From: Brumimicrobium oceani
GTDB taxonomy: Bacteria; Bacteroidota; Bacteroidia; Flavobacteriales_D; Crocinitomicaceae
DNA: 64,000 nucleotides
Reading direction: 5' to 3'
Assembly (NCBI RefSeq): GCF_003143775.1
Contig: NZ_QFRJ01000013.1
Location: 35,459 to 99,458, forward strand
Shown here: positions 42,505-64,000 of the stretch, piece by piece
How the letters are laid out: each line of letters opens with the position of its first letter
How positions within the stretch are numbered: the first letter of the stretch is position 1
Notes under the pieces: model-generated
Seen by the model: only the letters and a program-made list of their open reading frames with translations
Databases searched by the model: none
What the model was told of the DNA's origin: nothing
Translations under genes and position numbers: made by a program

Positions 42505-43815
42505 ATGAGCGAAGCAAAAGAACAATTAAAATACAAGGTTAAAGACATTAGCCTTGCAGATTATGGAAGAAAAGAAATAAGACTTGCTGAGGCGGATATG
42601 CCAGGATTAATGTCTTTACGTGAGGAATTTGGTGCGTCTAAACCACTAAAAGGAGCGCGTATTGCAGGTTGTTTGCACATGACAATTCAAACTGCAGTTC
42701 TAATTGAAACGTTGGTTGAATTAGGTGCAGATGTTACTTGGTCTTCTTGTAATATATTCTCTACGCAAGATCACGCAGCAGCGGCAATTGCAGCAGCGGG
42801 AATCCCAGTTTTTGCATGGAAGGGAATGAATGAAGAAGAATTTGACTGGTGTATAGAGCAAACATTATTTGCTTTTGAGGATGGTCAGCCTTTAAATATG
42901 ATTCTTGATGATGGTGGTGACTTAACAAATATGGTTTTCGATCGTTATCCTGAATTAACAAAAGACATTAAAGGACTTTCTGAAGAAACAACTACAGGAG
43001 TTCACCGTTTATACGAAAGAAAGAAAGCCGGTACTTTAGTGATGCCAGCAATCAATGTTAATGACTCTGTTACAAAATCTAAATTTGACAACAAATACGG
43101 ATGTAAAGAATCATTAGTTGATGCTATTCGTCGTGCTACAGATACAATGATGGCTGGAAAAGTGGCTGTTGTTTGTGGTTATGGTGATGTTGGAAAGGGT
43201 TCAGCAGCTTCGTTAAGAGGTGCTGGAGCGCGTGTTATTGTTACTGAAATCGATCCAATTTGTGCACTACAAGCTGCAATGGACGGTTTTGAAGTTAGAA
43301 AATTAGACAATGTTGTTGGAAATGTTGATATCGTTGTTACGACAACTGGAAACAAAGACATCGTTGTTGGACGTCACTTTAAAGCGATGAAAGACAAAGT
43401 TATTGTTTGTAACATAGGACACTTCGACAACGAAATCGATGTGGCTTGGTTAAACCAAAACGCAACATCTAAAGATGAAATTAAACCACAAGTTGATTTA
43501 TACGACTTAGACGGAAAAGACATCATTCTTTTGGCTGAAGGACGTTTAGTAAACTTAGGTTGTGCTACAGGTCACCCTTCATTCGTAATGTCTAACTCTT
43601 TTGCGAATCAAACTTTGGCGCAAATGGAATTATGGTCGAACTCTGACAAGTACGAAAACGACGTATATATGCTACCAAAACACTTAGATGAAAAAGTAGC
43701 TGAATTGCACCTTTCAAAAGTAGGAGCTGAATTAGAGGAGCTTTCTAAGGAACAAGCTGACTATATTGGAGTAGATGTGAAAGGTCCTTATAAACCAGAG
43801 CACTACCGTTACTAG
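42505..43815 (+). CDS. ahcY: Adenosylhomocysteinase
   Basis: A 436-residue enzyme splitting S-adenosylhomocysteine into adenosine and homocysteine, which regenerates the methyl cycle. It has the NAD-binding CGYGDVGKG motif, the substrate-domain [14 protein letters not shown] and the C-terminal KPEHYRY, all diagnostic. The length is normal. It has its own strong promoter upstream and a perfect terminator downstream, so it is monocistronic. Confidence 0.98.
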
Positions 43816-43893
43816 TCTTTTCTGTTTATAAAGCTCAAGAGCTTTCTAAATCAGAAACTAGATTCTACTGATAAATAGAATTACAGTGTATTG

Positions 43894-43931
43894 AAAAGAG
43901 TCCAAACTTAATTGTTTGGACTCTTTTTTTT
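43894..43931 (+). terminator. Terminator of ahcY
   Basis: AAAAGAGTCCAAAC (43894-43907) and its perfect complement (43914-43927) enclose a TTAATT loop and run into a T tract, 78 bases after the ahcY stop. Confidence 0.92.
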
Positions 43932-43932
43932 G

Positions 43933-44134
43933 AAATCAATCTCAAGTAAAGATAATGCACCAGCGATTTGTAAACTTAGCGAAGCGATCTCATGACCAAA
44001 GGGAGTAATCATCATCCCAATCATTAGCTACCTTCTACTCATCATTGCAAAAGATGGATTAAATAGAGCATTTAAACATTCCATTTTTCAAATCCCATCT
44101 CAAGAAAAGATAATGTAAGGACGGTTTGTAAACT
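43933..44134. repeat. Pair of imperfect 44-bp direct repeats
   Basis: 43933-43976 and 44090-44134 share AAATC, ATCTCAAG, AAAGATAATG and TTTGTAAACT in the same order, about 157 bp apart, with scattered differences. They fill the gap between the ahcY terminator and that of the CotH gene. The origin is unknown. Confidence 0.5.
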
Positions 44135-44195
44135 GCTACCCTTAGCATTAGCTTCCAGAGACTACCATCGATCAATTCAACTGAAAGAAATTCAT

Positions 44196-44234
44196 AAAAA
44201 AAGCATCTTCCTAATCAATAGAAAGATGCTTTTT
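44196..44234 (-). terminator. Terminator of the CotH/T9SS gene
   Basis: AAAAAGCATCTT (44198-44209) and AAGATGCTTTTT (44223-44234) form a perfect 12-bp stem; on the minus strand it ends in a T run, 30 bases beyond the stop at 44264. Confidence 0.88.
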
Positions 44235-44263
44235 ACTTTTATTAAAGTGGTAAACCTGTTAAA

Positions 44264-47200
44264 CTACCTTTTAATTAGTCTTAAAGTTTCTTCTGAAGTC
44301 TTGGTAACTACTTTCACTAAATACACTCCAGGAGAGAAAGTATGCATATCAACTACCGTTGTATTTTGATTCGGTTGGCTTTTGTGTACCACTTGCCCAT
44401 AAATATTATAGACTTCAACACGCGCTAATGGAATGTCGGCTGCTACATTAAAAGTAGTGCGGGCAGGGTTAGGATAAATGTTAACAGTGGATAAATCCGC
44501 ATAATTCTCTGTGGATAAAATTTTCGATGCAGCCATGATGATGTTGTTCATAATTACCTCATCGCTATTATCAACCGTCATATCCAGACCATCAAAGCGC
44601 AATCTTATCTTAAAGTTTAAATTATCATTTGCAACAGCAACATTCGAAAAATTAAATGTCAATACTTGATAAGCACTAGTAATTGCTTGGGTAGCATTCA
44701 CCAAATCATCATCAATCCATTGTGAACCATCCCAATAGTCAACGATTAAGGTTTCCGCTCCACCATTAGACATTATAGCAAGAGAGAAGCTAATGTTTTC
44801 TAAACCTATTGTAGGAACATCAAAAACTAGGTTGTTCTCTAAATTCCCTGCTCTAAAGGGTTGTCTTACTTGAACTCCGCGCATATTTGAATTAGGATAA
44901 GAGACGTTATTGTTGGACTCTGATGAATAATTCAATGGTGTTGGAGCGTTTTTTCTTTCTAAAGAAGCCTTTCTCCAATTTGGGTCATTTATAGTAAAAG
45001 GATATCCCGATAAACAAGAATTGTAGTTAAGCATAGCAGCCAATCCGTTACTGGCGTAAGTAACACTTAAATTCTCCATTGGTGTATCATTAGGTAAATC
45101 ACTGTCCATCAACCAGAAATAAACAACTTCTTGCGGAGCAACTACAGCATCGAAGTTAGCCTGGATGTTCATATTACTCGTTGGAATAATTTCAATCTCT
45201 GCGTTTGTTCCCGTCACATCACCCGACCAATGCGAGAAAGTATAACCCGGCAAAGCAATCGCTTTTAAAGTCACGGGAACATCCTGAAAGTACTGACCTG
45301 TCCAAGGGTAAGGATTTTGAGGGATTCCAGGTGTCGACTCCTTAATCTCAATTGTACTAATGTTTATATAACCTGCATTAACATCAGAAACATTGAGGAT
45401 AAAGTCTAGAACATTCGCAAATGAGAAATAGTCTTTTATTTGATCTTGTTGAATAGCTTCTCTTGTTGTCCCCCAATTTAGCAGATCAGTCTTTTCTTGT
45501 AATTCAAAAAATTCAATTTTTGGATATCTATTGGCATCTTCGGTTAAATAAGGAGAGACCTCGTTAAATACTTTATTTACTACGCTATTAAAATGTTCAG
45601 GAGTAAAAACTGTATTTAAAACATCAGCAAACCTGTTTACAAATTGAATTTTAAACCCTTCATTTGCCAATAAATTCCCCAAAAACAATTCATTCGGCGA
45701 ACCTGTAAGCACTGCATGATAATCCAACCAATTGATATTACTCTTCATTGAGGCTTCAAAATCTTGAACAGTAACACGCCATTTCCCATCTCCGTAGGAA
45801 GTATTTTCGGGTGTACGAACTTTCCAAAACTTCCTTTCGTAGCTATCATTCGCTGCATATATTTCCAATACAATGTGATCGATATAAGAGGACATATCTA
45901 ACATAGCACTAGCTTGGTCAAACAGCATTTGATTTGACATATCGTTGTTGATAATAAAATCTCTCATTGCTATAAAATCAGAGTAATCTGAGCTCAACCC
46001 TTCATCCAAATCACAATTTACTCCCTTACAATCAACAATTGCAATATTATTGTCATTTAATCCATAATTTAAGGCAAAATGCTTATCATCCACCCTGTCT
46101 CTTAACGCCGTTAAGCCCCAATATTCGCCATTAATAAAATGGATTGCAGGCTGTATTCGCGTTACACCATCATAAATGGGCTGCATTGCTTTATTGAACA
46201 CAACATCGTAAGCAACTGGACCACCTGTTCCGTTTCCCCTTAGCAATATTCGTTTAAAAGCATTATTTGGCATAGGAGTTCCCGGAATAGTGTTATCAAA
46301 CAAGTCATGCTCAAAAAGGTCGTTATTATCGTAATCACTTCTTGCATACAATCTTAAGTTCTTAATCCCCAATGATCTTGAGTTATTTCCGTGAATTCTA
46401 AAACCTGCATTTAAATTTGTAATGGAATTCAGTAAAGTTGGTGTAGACTCAAACAGCTCAACGTTGACAGGGTATTCCCACTGGCTACCACTGCGCCAAT
46501 AGTTGTTCCATTCAGGTCTATAAAACTGATTATTTGCAGGGTTATTTGCTCTCCATGTATCAAAATCTACCCCAGACGTATATATCCCATCATCATAATC
46601 AAACAGATAATTTTCTTGAATCTGCAAAGAAATCACAGGAATATCATAAGGATTTCCCTGACTCCAAACAAAGAAAGTTTTGGAGATTGTAGCAGATCCA
46701 ATTCCATTTAGAAAAGCTTTTGCTCTAATTACAGTGGCTTTTCTTATTGAATTAATAGGAACATATTGATCAAATTGAAATGTATTTTTCGCAGCTAACT
46801 CCTCTGGATCATTGGAACGATCATAAATATTAATCGCGGAAACATATGCATTAGAGGTAAAACTATCAGAAAGCAAAGGCCCAGGCGAACTTCCTACCTG
46901 AGTAGGATAATCGTTTTTATAATTATAAACTGTTCCTGTTAAATTATTAGGCATTGGCTCAGAGCCATCCAAAGTATAAATAATTGAAACGTTAGGATTG
47001 GCATGAGACAGGGTTAAATCGAAACTAGAAGTATACAAGCCAGACTCATGTGAAAAAGTTGGAGGAAGTAATAATTCTGTTAATCCAGTTCCTGTATTGG
47101 ATGCTTCTGGTGTGGGTGTATAAAAAAACAACCAAGTCCCAATTCCATTAGGCTGTCGACCATAAGAAACGTCTGGCTGCAATTCAGTAGCACCCACTTG

Positions 47201-57145: not shown

Positions 57146-57245
57146 ACCCAGACGGTTTTTCACCACTTCGCTTTTAAAAACGTCTGGGTCGGGCTATCCG
57201 CTATATCTCTGACCCAAACGTCAGAGGATGCCGCTGCTATCCCTA
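57146..57245 (-). ncRNA. Structured RNA-like element, copy 2 (possible Flavo-1-type motif)
   Basis: Read on the minus strand this matches copy 1 at 22122-22250. It has a stem of CTCTGAC (57207-57213) with GTCAGAG (57220-57226) around a 6-base loop, as in copy 1, and a second stem of ACCCAGACG (57146-57154) with CGTCTGGGT (57181-57189). The second stem has the same position but different bases from copy 1, which is compensatory change. A partial direct repeat (CCCTAATGCGA) follows at 57241 and 57291. Confidence 0.65.
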
Positions 57246-57388
57246 ATGCGAAAGATTCACGAGTTCCATTTATAGAAAGTCACGAGTAATCCCTAATGCG
57301 AGAAGATTAAATGCTAATTAAAGTTGTTGATTGAATAGATAAAGCAATTTTAAGCAAGCCTTATTAAAATTGTAATTGCTGTGTTTTT

Positions 57389-57842: not shown

Positions 57843-58991
57843 ATGAAAGCAAATAACAACAAATCGATAACCTTAAAAAACCTCTTGATTAACGAGGAAA
57901 AGCAGATTGGAATACAGTTTCAGTCTGATAAAGTAGTGCAGGCTCTATTAAAGGAATTGCCAAACATCAAGTGGAGCAAAGAGTTTGGTATGGCTTATAT
58001 TCCCAACAACAAATTAAACATCAAACTCATATTCCAAAAATTTAAAGGAGTAGCTTGGGTAAATGGGAATTACTTTTTTAGTAAAAAAAGAGTTTTTAAT
58101 CAAAACGAACCCATAAACGTAGAATGGTTTAGGAATCGGAAAGTAGCACCTGGCTATAAGGTTTGCCCGGAGGAGTATCTTCTAAAACTAGAATTAAAAT
58201 GTTATGCGAACAATACAGTAAAAACTTACGTAAATTGTTTTGAGAGATTCATTAACGCACATGAGGAAACTGATTATATGAGAATTGATGAAAGAGAAAT
58301 TAGAAGTTATCTGCAAAAGCTTATTCAAAAAGGATACTCTGATAGTTATGTCAACCAAATGATCAATAGCATCAAGTTCTACTATGAATTAGTGAAAGGA
58401 ATGCCCAATCGATTCTATAGTATAGAAAGACCCAGAAAAAAAGACCCTCTACCAAAAGTGATAAGTTTAGAAGAGGTTCAAGGAATTATTTTAAACACGA
58501 ATAACATCAAGCATAAGTGTATTGTGAGTTTACTATACTCTGCTGGATTAAGAAGATCGGAACTACTGAACTTAACATTAAAAGATATTGATAGTAAAAG
58601 AATGACTATCCTGATTAAAAATAGCAAAGGCGGCAAAGATAGATTAACCATGTTAAGTGAAAATGTGCTGAAAGATTTAAGGGTTTACTATAAGAAATGG
58701 AAACCAAAAAAATATCTATTTGAAGGTAAGAATGGCAACAAATATAGTGCAACAAGTGTTTTGAGTATTATTAATAAATCAGCCAAAAAAGCAGGTATTA
58801 ATAAAAGCGTTAGTCCACACATTTTAAGGCATAGCTTTGCGACGCATCTTTTAGAAAACGGAACAGATTTAAGATATATTCAATCTTTAATGGGCCACAG
58901 CAGTAGTAAAACGACGGAAATATATACTCAAGTAGCAACAAATCATCTAAAAAACATTAAAAGTCCGATTGAATTATTAAATTTGAGTTGA
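57843..58991 (+). CDS. Tyrosine recombinase of the cassette array (non-canonical integron integrase)
   Basis: A 382-residue recombinase. Residues 1-105 are an extra N-terminal domain (WSKEFGMAYIPNN, GVAWVNGNYFF), then a SAM-like core-binding domain (about 108-190) and the catalytic domain. Catalytic residues: R237 in GLRRSEL, K265 in KGGKDR, H326 and R329 in HILRH, H352 in MGHSS, and Y361 in EIYTQ. The C-terminus IKSPIELL resembles that of IntI proteins, but the IntI-specific insertion between the catalytic Lys and HxxR is absent (61 residues separate them). Its stop lies 5 bases before the first att hairpin, and it reads into the cassettes. A XerC/D or phage integrase is the alternative family label. 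Confidence 0.9.
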   Translation: MKANNNKSITLKNLLINEEKQIGIQFQSDKVVQALLKELPNIKWSKEFGMAYIPNNKLNIKLIFQKFKGVAWVNGNYFFSKKRVFNQNEPINVEWFRNRKVAPGYKVCPEEYLLKLELKCYANNTVKTYVNCFERFINAHEETDYMRIDEREIRSYLQKLIQKGYSDSYVNQMINSIKFYYELVKGMPNRFYSIERPRKKDPLPKVISLEEVQGIILNTNNIKHKCIVSLLYSAGLRRSELLNLTLKDIDSKRMTILIKNSKGGKDRLTMLSENVLKDLRVYYKKWKPKKYLFEGKNGNKYSATSVLSIINKSAKKAGINKSVSPHILRHSFATHLLENGTDLRYIQSLMGHSSSKTTEIYTQVATNHLKNIKSPIELLNLS

Positions 58992-58995
58992 AAAT

Positions 58996-59038
58996 ACAGG
59001 GTGGATATGCGCAATGCGTATATCGACCTGTTAGCTCC
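58996..59038 (+). other. attI-like hairpin site next to the recombinase gene
   Basis: ACAGG (58996-59000) pairs with CCTGT (59027-59031), with G59001 bulged; TGGATATGCGC (59002-59012) pairs with GCGTATATCGA (59016-59026) with one G-G mismatch and one G-T wobble; the loop is AAT. The core GTTAGCTCC (59030-59038) marks the start of cassette 1. Unlike classical attI, this primary site can itself form an attC-like hairpin with an extrahelical base. Confidence 0.7.
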
Positions 59039-60399
59039 AATTATAATATGACGACTTTGAGAACCACTATAATGGCACTATTTATCTGCTTGAACTTAAT
59101 AGCTCAGCCGTCTATTACGGAAAGAATAAGTAAAATAGATAATATTGCAATAGCTGAGATAAGTACTAAAGATGGTTTTTCAAAATGTTTCGAAATCATG
59201 TTTAGGCAACCCGTAAATCATTCTGATACTTCAGAAGGTTTTTTTTATCAAAAAATGTATTTATCGCATAAGAGCATAGATAAACCGATGGTTTTAAATG
59301 TAAATGGTTACGTGTCCTCTTCGAATAGAATAAGTGATTGGACCCATTCGTTAGATGCCAACCAGATATATGTTGAGCATAGATATTTTGGGGAATCGAA
59401 ACCAAAAAAGATGAATTACGAACATTTGAATATGTTGAACTCTGTTTCAGATTTACATTGTATCAAAATGGCTTTTTCTCAAATTTATCAAAATGGCTGG
59501 GTTAGTGTTGGAGTCAGTAAAGGGGGGCTAACAGCACTATCATATAAATATTTCTATCCTGATGATATAGATGCTACAATAGCGCTTTCAACATCTGTAA
59601 AAACCTCAGAATGTGATTCAAGTTTTTTTAATTTTATTGATAGTCTAAATTCCAATCAAGGCTGCAAAGATGAACTAGATTCTTTTCAGCGACTTTTATT
59701 GAAAGAAAAAGACAACATAATACCATATCTTAACGATTACCTGATTCAGCGGGGTAAAAGCTTCGATCATTTAGGGCTTACAACTATCTATGAAATTGCC
59801 GTTTTAGAGATTCCTTTTTCAATCTGGCAGAATGGTAAAGGATGCCAAACGATCGATTTCAGCGTTTATGATCCTAAAAGTTTATTTAACGAGATGAGAA
59901 AAAGCTTAAATGGTTGGTTTATGACCGATGAAGTTTTCACTAGAATTAATTCTTATCATATTCAGGCATTGACTGAATTAGGTTACTACTGCTATCCTGT
60001 TACTAGATTTTCAAATTTACTTGAATCTGATTTTGAAAAACTAACTCCAGTGCATCCAATAGAAGGTGTTAAAATATCTTATTCAAATGAACTAATGACT
60101 CAGATTAAAAAGTGGGCGATAACAAAAGGAAATAGAGTTATTTATATCTCAGGTGGAAATGACCCTTATTCAAAATATAGAATTGTTCCTTTAGAAGGAG
60201 TCAATGCCAAAAGCTTTCTTCTCGAAGGGAAGAATCACAATGAAGTATATAATTATTATATTGATTCGGCAACTTACGACGAAATAAAGTCATTAATTAT
60301 TAATTGGATAGAATAGTAAAAACAGGAGCTAACATCACCTAAGCCTCAAGCCTTTTACGTACATTCGTGGTAGCGGCTCGAAGGCTTAGCTGAAGAACG
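59031..60399 (+). mobile_element. Gene cassette 1 (serine peptidase)
   Basis: A 1369-bp unit from the TT of GTTAGCTCC to the G of the next GTT. Its start GTTAGCTCC (59030-59038) is complementary over 9 bp to GGAGCTAAC (60325-60333) at its end. It contains one gene. Confidence 0.8.
59048..60316 (+). CDS. Secreted S28/S37-like serine peptidase (cassette 1)
   Basis: A 422-residue exported protein (signal peptide ending near NLIAQP). It has an alpha/beta-hydrolase core with VEHRYFGES and nucleophile motif GVSKGG, then an acidic candidate in SGGNDPYS and a candidate His in GKNHNEV, matching the S28/PS-10 (S37) prolyl aminopeptidase group. The ATG at 59048 is preferred; the open frame runs back to a TTG at 58988, but that would cover the att site and lacks a signal peptide. 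The gene begins 17 bp after the cassette border. Confidence 0.8.
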   Translation: MTTLRTTIMALFICLNLIAQPSITERISKIDNIAIAEISTKDGFSKCFEIMFRQPVNHSDTSEGFFYQKMYLSHKSIDKPMVLNVNGYVSSSNRISDWTHSLDANQIYVEHRYFGESKPKKMNYEHLNMLNSVSDLHCIKMAFSQIYQNGWVSVGVSKGGLTALSYKYFYPDDIDATIALSTSVKTSECDSSFFNFIDSLNSNQGCKDELDSFQRLLLKEKDNIIPYLNDYLIQRGKSFDHLGLTTIYEIAVLEIPFSIWQNGKGCQTIDFSVYDPKSLFNEMRKSLNGWFMTDEVFTRINSYHIQALTELGYYCYPVTRFSNLLESDFEKLTPVHPIEGVKISYSNELMTQIKKWAITKGNRVIYISGGNDPYSKYRIVPLEGVNAKSFLLEGKNHNEVYNYYIDSATYDEIKSLIINWIE

Positions 60400-60405
60400 T
60401 TGTGT
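60325..60405 (+). other. attC-like site 1
   Basis: Outer box GGAGCTAAC (60325-60333), which is complementary to the start of its own cassette. The inner arms are CTAAGCCTCAAGCC (60339-60352) and GGCTCGAAGGCTTAG (60375-60389); they pair with one unmatched base and one mismatch, around a 22-base loop. The site ends at GTTGTGT (60399-60405). About 81 bp, within the size range of attC sites. Confidence 0.8.
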
Positions 60406-63237
60406 TTAATTAATCGACATATCAAAAATGGATTCCATTGAGAAGCACATAAAAAACTTAAATGAACAGCAATTGGAAGCTGTAACTTCTACAGAAGGGT
60501 ATGTCCGAGTAATTGCAGGTGCCGGTTCAGGTAAAACTAAGGCCCTTACTTCACGATACGCATACATTGTTGAGACGCTTGGTATCAGTGCTTCAAATAT
60601 TCTCTGCGTAACCTTTACTAATAAGGCTTCTAGAGAAATGAGATTACGAGTAAAAAAGTTAATAGGAGATCAACATGACTTGAGTTATATTACAACTTAC
60701 CATGGCTTTTGCGTGAGAGTGCTGAGGGAAGATATTAATAAGATTGGTTATCCGAAGAATTTTGTGATTATGGACGTTGAAGATCAGAAAACCATTCTTC
60801 GCGACATTTACAACGAATTTGGAATCACCTCAAAGCTGATTACTTTCAAACAAGTATTGAGGCATATAAGTAGAAGAAAAAGCTCTCAAGAATATTTGGA
60901 TTATATTATTAATCCAACCAAAAAAGAACCAAAAAATGATCTTGATAAGATTTTCTATAGATACCTGCAAAAACAGCAAAGGAATTTCGCTTTAGATTTT
61001 GATGATTTAATCAACTTTACATTATATATTTTCCTGACAGATAAAGTAGTTTTTGAAAAGTGGAAGCAGAGACTTCATTATATTCAAGTTGATGAAATGC
61101 AGGATAGTTCTGAAAAACAATTCAGGCTAGTTTCAATGTTATCAGAAACACATAAAAACCTCTTTGTTGTCGGTGACCCTGATCAAACAATTTATGAATG
61201 GCGCGGAGCGAGGCCAGAATTTTTAGTTGACTTTAATCAACAATTTCCAAGTTCAAAGACCATTTTAATGAATCAAAATTATCGTTCAACACCTAATATC
61301 CTGACACTAGGTAATCATATTATTAAGAATAATAAGGTCAGAGTTGATAAGGATATGTTCACTCAAAACCCTCAAGGGGTTGAGGTAGTCCATTTTCACG
61401 CGAAAAACGAAAGTGAAGAAGGTAACTGGATTGCTGAAGAAATATCCAGACTTGTATCAAAAGAGGTCTGTAATTTCTCAGATTTCGCAATTCTTTATAG
61501 AGCAAATCATATTTCTAGAAGCATAGAACAAGCCTTAGTCAAAAAGAACATTCCATACACAATTTTCGGTGGAATTAGATTTTTTGAAAGGAAAGAGATT
61601 AAAGACATTCTATCCTATTTAAGAATGGTTGAATTTGAAGATGACATTTCATTCCTAAGAATTATAAACACTCCAAGTCGCGGTCTTGGCAAAAAATTCA
61701 TAGAAGAAGTTTCTATGATTGCTGAAAATGACAACATATCATTATATTCTGCGCTCCAAAAAAACATAGCATCAGACGGCTTAAATCGGAAAGGAGCAAA
61801 AGATTTTATAGATTTAATTGAAGAATTCCAGAAATTAAGATCAAAGAAGAAAATCTCTGATCTAATAAAAATCATCCTTGATCAAAGTGGCCTGACTGAA
61901 TTGTTCAGAACTGATGGAGACACTGATCGTCTGGATAACCTTATAGAATTGCAGAACTCGATAATCGCATTTGAATCAGAAGATGAGGATATATCTCTTG
62001 ATGAGTTTCTTCAAGAGATCACTCTTTATTCTGATGTCGACTTAGAAGAGGATCAGGGAGATAAAGTCAAATTAATGACTATCCATACGTCCAAAGGATT
62101 GGAGTTCCCCTTTGTCTTTTTGTGTGGCTTCAATGAAGGTATTCTCCCAAGCGCAATGTCAATTAAAGAAAGGAGAGCTAAAGCTATTGAAGAAGAAAGA
62201 AGACTTACATATGTAGCAATTACAAGAGCGGAAAAAGCTCTTTACTTAACTGAATCTGAAGGATATAATTTCAGCACTGGTCAGAACAAGCAGCCTTCAA
62301 GATTTTTATTTGAAATCAATGAAAATTTTCTAGTGCGTAAAGGTGAATTTCGAAAAGATGTAGATGACTCTCACTTAAGAATGCCATCTCGATTAACTGG
62401 TATCCCGATTGATCAAGAATTTAAAGTTGGGGACATTATAGAACACAAAGTATGGGATGAAGGAGAGGTTATTGAAGTGAATCGTGAAAAAGGAGAATAT
62501 CTAATCTATTTCAGCTTAATCGATAGTAAAAAGCCAATAAATTTTGAATTCAAAGGGTTGACTCTAATTGAAAGTAAAACTAGTGAAGATATTGTTGAAG
62601 ATACCGCAGAAGAAGTCACAATTAAAAAATCTGATAGTGAAATATCTGAGACCGAAGATCTTGCCAAATCACTTCAGAAAGAAAATGATTTTAAATCAAT
62701 AGAATCAGACATTAGAGCACAAATAAGACAGTTTGCTTCAAAAGAATATCCTAAAGACAAAGAAATGCAAGACTATGTTTTTAGTAATCAGCTAGAAGAT
62801 TTCAAATTCATGGACAACGTTAAAGATAAGCAAGTAAAGAATATTGCTATTAAAGACTGGCCTGAAGATTTTACAATGCAAAAGCATGTCTATGAGAAGA
62901 ATATAGTATCAAAAAATTTCATGAAAAACGTGTCTGATAAGAAGTTAAACAAGTACGCGAAAAAAGAATGGCCTTCTGACTTCACAATGCAACAGCATGT
63001 TTATGAAGAACAACTTGAAGCAAAAAATCAGATGATAGAATTCGAACACAGGGATTTCGCAAAAAGGGCTGAAGAAGAATGGCCTGAAGATTTCAAAATG
63101 CAGGTGTATTTTTATGAGAAGCTTGTATCGGGAGAAGAAAAGTAATTTAACGGAATGAAAAACTAAACACAACAACAAATAAACAAAATAGCGCCGATAG
63201 GGTTCAAGGTTTGCGCTAATTTGCTTATTTTAGGCCG
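60400..63237 (+). mobile_element. Gene cassette 2 (helicase)
   Basis: A 2838-bp unit, long for a cassette. Its start GTTGTGTTTA (60399-60408) is complementary over 10 bp to TAAACACAAC (63164-63173) at its end. Confidence 0.8.
60428..63145 (+). CDS. UvrD/PcrA-like SF1A helicase with novel C-terminal repeats (cassette 2)
   Basis: A 905-residue 3'-5' DNA helicase. Walker A is GAGSGKT, motif II VDEMQDSS, motif III GDPDQTIYEWRGA, NYRS follows, motif V is TIHTSKGLEFPFV and motif VI is ERRLTYVAITRAEKAL. A Tudor-like segment (VGDIIEHKVWDEGEV) follows, as in PcrA. The last 160 residues contain about four 37-residue repeats built on E-[WY]-P-x-D-x2-MQ-x2-[VF]-[YF]-E, which I do not recognise. Why a cassette carries a helicase is unclear; defence or plasmid-related roles are possible. 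Confidence 0.92.
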   Translation: MDSIEKHIKNLNEQQLEAVTSTEGYVRVIAGAGSGKTKALTSRYAYIVETLGISASNILCVTFTNKASREMRLRVKKLIGDQHDLSYITTYHGFCVRVLREDINKIGYPKNFVIMDVEDQKTILRDIYNEFGITSKLITFKQVLRHISRRKSSQEYLDYIINPTKKEPKNDLDKIFYRYLQKQQRNFALDFDDLINFTLYIFLTDKVVFEKWKQRLHYIQVDEMQDSSEKQFRLVSMLSETHKNLFVVGDPDQTIYEWRGARPEFLVDFNQQFPSSKTILMNQNYRSTPNILTLGNHIIKNNKVRVDKDMFTQNPQGVEVVHFHAKNESEEGNWIAEEISRLVSKEVCNFSDFAILYRANHISRSIEQALVKKNIPYTIFGGIRFFERKEIKDILSYLRMVEFEDDISFLRIINTPSRGLGKKFIEEVSMIAENDNISLYSALQKNIASDGLNRKGAKDFIDLIEEFQKLRSKKKISDLIKIILDQSGLTELFRTDGDTDRLDNLIELQNSIIAFESEDEDISLDEFLQEITLYSDVDLEEDQGDKVKLMTIHTSKGLEFPFVFLCGFNEGILPSAMSIKERRAKAIEEERRLTYVAITRAEKALYLTESEGYNFSTGQNKQPSRFLFEINENFLVRKGEFRKDVDDSHLRMPSRLTGIPIDQEFKVGDIIEHKVWDEGEVIEVNREKGEYLIYFSLIDSKKPINFEFKGLTLIESKTSEDIVEDTAEEVTIKKSDSEISETEDLAKSLQKENDFKSIESDIRAQIRQFASKEYPKDKEMQDYVFSNQLEDFKFMDNVKDKQVKNIAIKDWPEDFTMQKHVYEKNIVSKNFMKNVSDKKLNKYAKKEWPSDFTMQQHVYEEQLEAKNQMIEFEHRDFAKRAEEEWPEDFKMQVYFYEKLVSGEEK

Positions 63238-63246
63238 TTAGCACAC
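63164..63246 (+). other. attC-like site 2
   Basis: Outer box TAAACACAAC (63164-63173). Inner arms 63175-63194 and 63213-63232 pair at 16 of 20 positions (ending GCGC/GCGC), around an 18-base loop. The site ends with GTTAGCACAC (63237-63246), the start of cassette 3. Confidence 0.8.
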
Positions 63247-63920
63247 ATAACTTGAAAAAAATTATACCTATACTGATATTTCTACTGTTTGCAAGTATTC
63301 TAACTGCTCAAAGTAGATTAAATGGAACATATAATACACCTTGGGGTTCAGAACTGATACTAGTTGAAGGAAATATTTTCAATTATAAATCTTTCGAATG
63401 TTATCATTTAATTACTGCAAAAGGAAATTGGAATATATCGAATGATACTTTAAGACTAAACACTTTCCCAAAAGCTGGCTATGATAGTATAATAAGTATT
63501 AAACAAAAAAAAACGGACCTAAATTCTTATAGAATTACACTGACTGACTTGAATAATAACATTGCTTATTTCACTTCAATTACTGCTTATATAAATGGTA
63601 AAACTATAAACAAAAATACTGATACTTTAGGTTATATTGACCTTAATACAAATACTATTGATTCAATAAGAGTTGAAAATCAAAAAATAATAAAATATCA
63701 AGCAGATAAAGAAAATCAAAACCACATTATTATTACTTATTTTAATGTTAATATAGCAGATACAGAAAACTTTGAAAATCAACCTTTTCTAATTAAAGGA
63801 AAAAAACTTTTTTACATATATTTAAATACTCACAATAAGAAAAAGTATTTTAAAAAAAAATAAAACGTGTGCTAACAACTAAGTATTCGGCTTGCCGATA
63901 GGCCAAAGCTGAATACCCTG
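63238..63920 (+). mobile_element. Gene cassette 3 (secreted hypothetical protein)
   Basis: A 683-bp unit. Its start GTTAGCACAC (63237-63246) is complementary over 10 bp to GTGTGCTAAC (63867-63876) at its end. It is markedly more AT-rich than its neighbours. Confidence 0.85.
63252..63863 (+). CDS. Secreted hypothetical protein (cassette 3)
   Basis: A 203-residue protein with a clear signal peptide (hydrophobic residues 4-17, ending near LTAQS). The mature part begins with RLNGTYNTPWGSEL and is rich in Asn, Lys and Ile, with alternating strand-like segments; no family is recognised. The start is TTG at 63252, only 14 bases from the cassette border, leaving almost no room for a promoter. The unusual AT richness suggests a foreign origin. 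Confidence 0.75.
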   Translation: MKKIIPILIFLLFASILTAQSRLNGTYNTPWGSELILVEGNIFNYKSFECYHLITAKGNWNISNDTLRLNTFPKAGYDSIISIKQKKTDLNSYRITLTDLNNNIAYFTSITAYINGKTINKNTDTLGYIDLNTNTIDSIRVENQKIIKYQADKENQNHIIITYFNVNIADTENFENQPFLIKGKKLFYIYLNTHNKKKYFKKK

Positions 63921-63929
63921 TTGACGAAT
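63867..63929 (+). other. attC-like site 3
   Basis: Outer box GTGTGCTAAC (63867-63876). Inner arms GTATTCGGCTTGCC (63883-63896) and GGCCAAAGCTGAATAC (63901-63916) pair with one mismatch and two extrahelical bases on the right side, around a GATA loop. The site ends at GTTGACGAA (63920 onward), the border of cassette 4. Confidence 0.8.
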
Positions 63930-64000
63930 CCGGTTTCTCCTTATGGGGAAAACGATTTAACACCTTATTTTTGAAAGCTTGATTTGGTGGTCTACGCATT
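63921..64000 (+). mobile_element. Start of gene cassette 4 (cut by the window edge)
   Basis: The unit begins at the TT of GTTGACGAATCC and runs off the window; no gene start is recognisable in the 80 visible bases. If it is a cassette, its own attC should begin with GGATTCGTCAAC. Confidence 0.55.

Follow-up and report, generated by a model that had tools for sequence, protein, structure and literature searches.

What moves the genes at the right-hand end of this stretch of 64,000 nt from Brumimicrobium oceani (all of it is called the window here)? Three genes on one strand follow directly on a gene for a tyrosine recombinase, and a sequence-only reading had taken them for an integron-like array of cassettes, in which the beginning of each unit is complementary to its own end. 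From the evidence below, it is very probable that the locus is an integron-like cassette platform, whose XerA-like recombinase, without the insertion that marks integron integrases (IntI), is likely to excise and insert cassettes at G|TT. The features of the locus, in window coordinates, are these:

57843..58991, + strand: XerA-like tyrosine recombinase, 382 aa (from its open reading frame (ORF), profile matches and a structure comparison)
59000..59032, + strand: attI-like site, a palindrome at 59004-59024 and then the GTT at 59030 that starts cassette 1
59030..60398, + strand: cassette 1, with an ORF at 59048-60316 for an S37/S28-type peptidase or hydrolase (Pfam)
60325..60401, + strand: attC-like site of cassette 1, from its R'' (GGAGCTAAC) through the next GTT
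60399..63236, + strand: cassette 2, with an ORF at 60428-63145 for a UvrD/PcrA-type helicase of 905 aa with a long C-terminal extension
63164..63239, + strand: attC-like site of cassette 2, from its R'' (TAAACACAAC) through the next GTT
63237..63876, + strand: cassette 3 as far as its R'' (63867-63876), with an ORF at 63252-63863 (TTG start, 203 aa)
63877..64000, strand not assigned: end of an IS91-like element directly behind the R'' of cassette 3, recognized by its recurrence on other contigs

The three units start at 59030, 60399 and 63237, and their complementary ends (R'') finish at 60333, 63173 and 63876. Own start and own end are complementary over 9, 10 and 10 nt, against 3–6 nt in the six other start/end pairings, so that the match does join the two ends of one unit and not those of neighbors. 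The shared orientation of the three genes behind the recombinase also stands. The expectation that each unit ends in an attC-like hairpin holds for sites 1 and 2, both imperfect hairpins, and fails for the third, taken up below. Pfam and NCBIfam scans gave no match for the cassette 3 protein.

Under the proposed mechanism a cassette would leave as a circle, in which attC reads R''-L''-loop-L'-R', with the cassette's own start serving as R'. The bottom strand would fold into a hairpin, where G.T pairs take the place of the A.C mismatches of the top strand, and this folded strand is the one that the recombinase would use. Exchange at G|TT with attI would place the new cassette first, and the same recombinase would also serve attI-like sites elsewhere in the genome that have no recombinase of their own.

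Units of this type were looked for in relatives by a scan for the recombinase, with one genome per species. Of 148 stretches, 97 were confirmed and 80 loci kept, at 51–72% identity; by record title they are mostly Flavobacteriales, with a few of Cytophagales type. The recombinase end was set by hand in 77 of the 80, with L104, L119 and L121 (incomplete) excluded. Units (own-end match of at least 9 nt) and links, from one unit's end to the next unit's start, were counted in the 50 loci with at least 1 kb downstream of the recombinase (279,294 bases). These downstream regions hold 186 units and 105 links, with at least one unit in 45 loci and at least one link in 32; the longest chains have 11 units (L074, Winogradskyella eckloniae) and 10 units (L092). 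No control contained a link: there were 12 units upstream of the recombinase (262,659 bases), nine on the opposite strand, 26 in reversed and 24 in shuffled sequence. The same kind of unit thus does lie behind homologous recombinases in related genomes, as the sequence-only reading would require.

Chains are present in 44 loci, with 159 units and 115 sites. In all 159 units the own-end complement is no longer than 10 nt (10 in 106, 9 in 40, 8 in 13). After removal of five loci with the chain upstream of the recombinase (L049, L054, L089, L101, L113; a unit behind the L089 recombinase went with its locus), two second copies (L128 of L044, L125 of L096) and units below 9 nt, 136 units and 101 sites remained. 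A C precedes R'' in 110 of these 136 units, often after a run of A. The search pattern for unit starts has a fixed A at position 11, which therefore carries no weight as evidence. Because the unit search itself selects for own-end matches, sites were also located independently, by similarity of the attC body. This gave 117 sites in 35 loci. Among their 78 consecutive pairs, R'' matches its own start over 8–10 nt in 61 and the following start in five.

In bacteria, same-strand genes often have hairpins between them, and the hairpins seen here could be terminators or other repeats, in arrays that grew by ordinary duplication. The link-free controls and the preference for own over following starts both oppose this, as do the borders of cassettes that occur more than once. 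The array of Arenibacter arenosicollis (L065) holds a 654-bp cassette twice, once in first place at attI and once further along, and the two copies are identical from GTT via attC to the next GTT and different outside; a cassette of 1352 bp is likewise duplicated at attI and within the array in L135. A cassette 97.4% identical in Winogradskyella pacifica and W. psychrotolerans (L087, L102) has different neighbors in the two species, with homology stopping at GTT. In the B. oceani genome itself, three attI copies (both ends of contig C34, and C21) agree at 196–201 of 202 bases to the left of GTT and at 19–24 of 60 to its right, which places the divergence at GTT. Borders that shift exactly there were the second thing that the sequence-only reading had called for. 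The attC-like sites point the same way: in 95 site pairs, 83 of them between genomes, the attC bodies have 90% mean identity, whereas the flanking seven bases are identical at only 37% (R'') and 39% (R'). GTT borders, own-end rule and attI copies already contradict terminators and duplication, and this explanation is barely credible.

Near-identical attC bodies thus bear quite different R''/R' pairs, each pair still mutually complementary. Hairpin-templated correction of R'' by R' could account for this pattern.

From AAC to GTT, the attC-like sites are between about 44 and 165 nt long. Folded in its predicted circular form, window site 1 has a bottom strand at −22.6 and a top strand at −15.2 kcal/mol, and site 2 reaches −19.3 and −16.0 kcal/mol. 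The bottom strand is the more stable at 98 of the 101 sites (mean difference 3.7 kcal/mol, Wilcoxon p 4.5e-18), compared with 52 of 101 random stretches. Arm positions covary: with the loop excluded, 52 sites show 158 double-changed cells, whereas shuffles give 60 and slid structures no more than 79. At two conserved mismatch positions of the arms, A.C is found in 31 and 32 of the 52 sites, and the arms as a whole contain 91 A.C and 19 C.A cells. An A.C of the top strand is a G.T, which pairs, on the other.

An attI-like site was defined as a palindrome behind the recombinase stop codon, with arms of at least 8 and at most one mismatch, ending 0–8 nt before a GTT. Of 78 loci (the 77 and the window), 63 have such a site no more than about 120 bases from the stop, as against four of 231 control stretches. 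The arm sequences vary between loci yet remain palindromic. As an attI should, the site adjoins the recombinase gene, and in L065 and L135 a cassette present inside the array also stands at it.

Sites of the attC-like and attI-like kinds also occur elsewhere in the B. oceani genome. A search of it with model R1 returned window site 2 (2.4e-5) and C34:3357-3410 (37.3 bits, 3.4e-5), the remaining six matches having E-values of 0.05 or worse; C34 and C1 carry additional units. On C1 (L206, C1:1-9000), minus strand, at about 6.58 kb, cassettes accompany an attI-like palindrome that has no recombinase next to it, so the C5 recombinase, that of the window, may act on such sites in trans. Behind the third cassette start on C1 come a SIR2-like and a HerA-like gene, which are a known combination in anti-phage defense.

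What kind of recombinase is this? It has an N-terminal domain of about 100 residues, present in most homologs, a SAM-like core-binding domain, and a catalytic domain without the IntI insertion; R237, K262, H326, R329, H352 and Y361 of the catalytic set are invariant among 47 homologs. The locus might still be a canonical chromosomal integron that works by the same mechanism and whose IntI has diverged. IntI4 (2a3v) is the second Foldseek match, after 5hxy, and the TIGR02249 profile does align; IntI arrays in the phylum obey the own-end rule as well (L187), and the insertion is reportedly not fully conserved in an integron-like subgroup, according to the part of PMC8138268 consulted. The TIGR02249 score of 192.9 bits, however, is below its cut-off of 265, while that for NF040815 (XerA type) is 232.9 bits, above the curated cut-off of 220. 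The first Arg and HxxR are 89–91 residues apart in 74 of 81 homologs (the other seven not measured), against 131 in 23 of 29 IntI (the other six not measured). In the tree, 17 IntI form a single clade with support of 100/100 and the window recombinase outside it, although its position among Xer proteins is not fixed. On these grounds a divergent IntI is very unlikely. The enzyme is XerA-like and not an integron integrase; 'integron-like', the term first used, is therefore correct for the locus, whereas a strict use of 'integron' would be wrong.

The proposed cassette platform has been read from sequence, and several observations weigh against it. The IntI insertion that the recombinase lacks is held necessary for integron recombination in the portions consulted of PMC8138268 and PMC9668308. 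With at least 1 kb downstream examined, 18 of 50 loci have no link and five no unit. The IntI controls for folding are mixed, with the bottom strand better at eight of 10 sites in L187 and at one of four in L194 (few sites, orientation assumed). Attribution to the neighboring gene rests on position. Elsewhere in the B. oceani genome, C34, C21 and C1 carry attI-like sites with cassettes and no adjoining recombinase, and the genome contains 13 matches to the recombinase, some of them Xer-like. These last two points would suit real cassettes moved in trans by another enzyme, a housekeeping Xer or an unseen one, with the neighboring recombinase a bystander. That explanation is nonetheless quite improbable given how regularly an attI-like site lies just behind the recombinase stop. 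Shorter and longer relatives of the recombinase also have attI-like sites or arrays (L042, L133, L135), and in the B. oceani genome nothing matches TIGR02249 at E ≤ 1e-60. The platform with its own XerA-like recombinase is thus preferred; its working plan is likely integron-like and its family not, making it a variant that uses another recombinase.

Recombinases of this broader kin are widespread, and arrays need not accompany all of them: 117 of 240 genomes of the family Crocinitomicaceae have one (E ≤ 1e-60), and 7954 of 8000 scored database proteins match at 1e-40. Some occur in other settings. One genome (G008:C1, L143) has eight near-identical copies of a related recombinase (~44% identity), three inside 7 kb, which may be a separate mobile element. 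Among 162 matching plasmid records, the 50 from Acinetobacter (H10-H20) encode a recombinase 54% identical to residues 147-381, called TnpF in one record. In the B. oceani genome, an adjacent pair of recombinase genes is present twice on C12 (G000:C12:34649-36334 and 42669-44354), 8,020 bases apart and with equal scores, which suggests a duplicated segment.

The third window hairpin was rejected as an attC. The sequence at 63877-64000 recurs on C16 (L205) and C1 (L206), and partly on C34 (L204) and C21 (L207); C1 encodes an IS91-type transposase (Y2_Tnp, Zn_Tnp_IS91) near its copy, so the hairpin is identified as part of an inserted IS91-like element. This begins directly behind an R'' in the window and on C16, and on C1 and C34 it abuts sequence that looks, as judged by eye, like the R'' which the beginning of the preceding cassette would predict. 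The element may target attC-like sites. The true attC of unit 3 would then lie beyond the element or be broken; window position 64000 is the end of contig C5 (99458 bases), and the assembly accordingly has no sequence to its right. On the other side of the array, just upstream of the recombinase region, is a Flavo-1 RNA (RF01705) at 57183-57254, minus strand, which at 48.6 bits exceeds the gathering score of 42.

The 136 cassettes have a median length of 689 bp. The longest ORF is on the array strand in 109 and on the opposite strand in 13, with none of 50 aa in 14. Cargo scans took 100 of 108 listed cassette proteins. In Pfam, 76 families match, and nearly all of the 25 listed do so in one protein each; these include restriction enzymes and hydrolases as well as AAA ATPases, a SLATT domain and a single protein of the beta-lactamase family (PF00144). 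PADLOC gave matches to 160 families, of which the 25 listed match two members each and are mostly ATPase-type defense profiles.

Arrays of a comparable layout are found in the Bacteroidales, as clusters of recombinase-associated acquired interbacterial defense (rAID) genes: a tyrosine recombinase, co-oriented genes and immunity cargo (PMC12247911). Those sections of that paper on which this comparison draws name conserved intergenic motifs and leave the mechanism of cluster assembly open, as an area of active research. The recombinase search reached the Bacteroidales plasmid records H3, H4 and H9 at 34–38% identity over 98–99% of its length, and in two annotated Bacteroidales records the recombinase is followed by co-oriented genes, immunity proteins among them. 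Own-end chains were compared with shuffles in three rAID-type records. At 7 nt, the chain in L216 (Parabacteroides) reaches 9, while none of 20 shuffles goes beyond 6 and the upstream sequence gives 4; the values for array and shuffles are 7 against 6 in L215 (Bacteroides ovatus) and 6 against 5 in L217, and at 6 nt no chain in the three exceeds its shuffles. Sites located by CCATTA alone match their own starts over at least 7 nt in six of 12 cases in L215 and four of nine in L216, and the next start in none of either; the bottom strand is more stable in six of six and four of four, respectively. No site of this kind was found in L217. Two of the three records thus follow the own-end rule in part, and own-end matches together with bottom-strand stability make it likely that rAID and window arrays share one mechanism.

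It is conceivable, if somewhat doubtful, that the Bacteroidia have an integron lineage of their own, with a XerA-like recombinase in place of IntI, spanning marine flavobacterial arrays and gut rAID clusters and explaining how the latter assemble. Its recombinase would act in trans on several attI per genome, and an N-terminal domain of XPB damage-recognition type would read the folded, G.T-paired hairpin in place of the IntI insertion.

Such arrays could have escaped earlier surveys. As described in the excerpts used here, the IntegronFinder protein search requires an IntI-specific profile besides PF00589 (PMC9668308), and for Bacteroidetes proper the IntegronFinder 2.0 survey names a single complete integron, that of Salinibacter ruber M1 (PMC9024848). 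Searches that require the IntI insertion would miss a recombinase without it. The open PMC literature, mostly as titles and the starts of abstracts, yielded no Bacteroidota cassette array with a non-IntI recombinase besides the rAID papers. If confirmed, the system would reveal a large store of mobile cassettes, some with defense genes, in a bacterial group that is very common. There would then be more than one route to recombining folded attC sites, that by the IntI insertion and another, and rAID cluster assembly would become directly testable.

How, then, does the locus compare with known systems? It shares with sedentary chromosomal integrons (IntI, attI, attC) single-gene cassettes mostly on one strand, an attI-like site beside the recombinase, and tandem hairpin attC-like sites with an own-start-complementary R'' and a GTT border, here at two of the three window sites. 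It differs in its recombinase, which lacks the IntI-specific additional domain and in most homologs has an N-terminal one, and in an attI that is a palindrome. Own-end complementarity is common to it and the IntI array L187 of the same phylum (11 units, 9–14 nt), but stops at 10 nt in window-type units and extends to 14 in L187.

XerA is a chromosome-resolution enzyme. The window recombinase resembles XerA-type proteins (NF040815; PDB 5hxy, 4a8e) in passing the NF040815 cut-off and in its best Foldseek match, but has an N-terminal domain and precedes a cassette array.

With rAID clusters it shares a homologous recombinase (38% identity, 98% of the query), the 89-residue spacing, co-oriented genes and, in two of three records, the own-end rule. 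Window-type arrays have the tyrosine recombinase, co-oriented short genes and repeated intergenic motif of a rAID cluster, although the second window gene, at 905 aa, exceeds the usual 100–300 codons. The exchange core is CCA|TT in rAID sites, which are shorter (~40 nt), and G|TT in window-type ones. rAID cargo consists of immunity genes, whereas the window genes match a peptidase or hydrolase, a helicase and nothing, with no orphan immunity gene among them.

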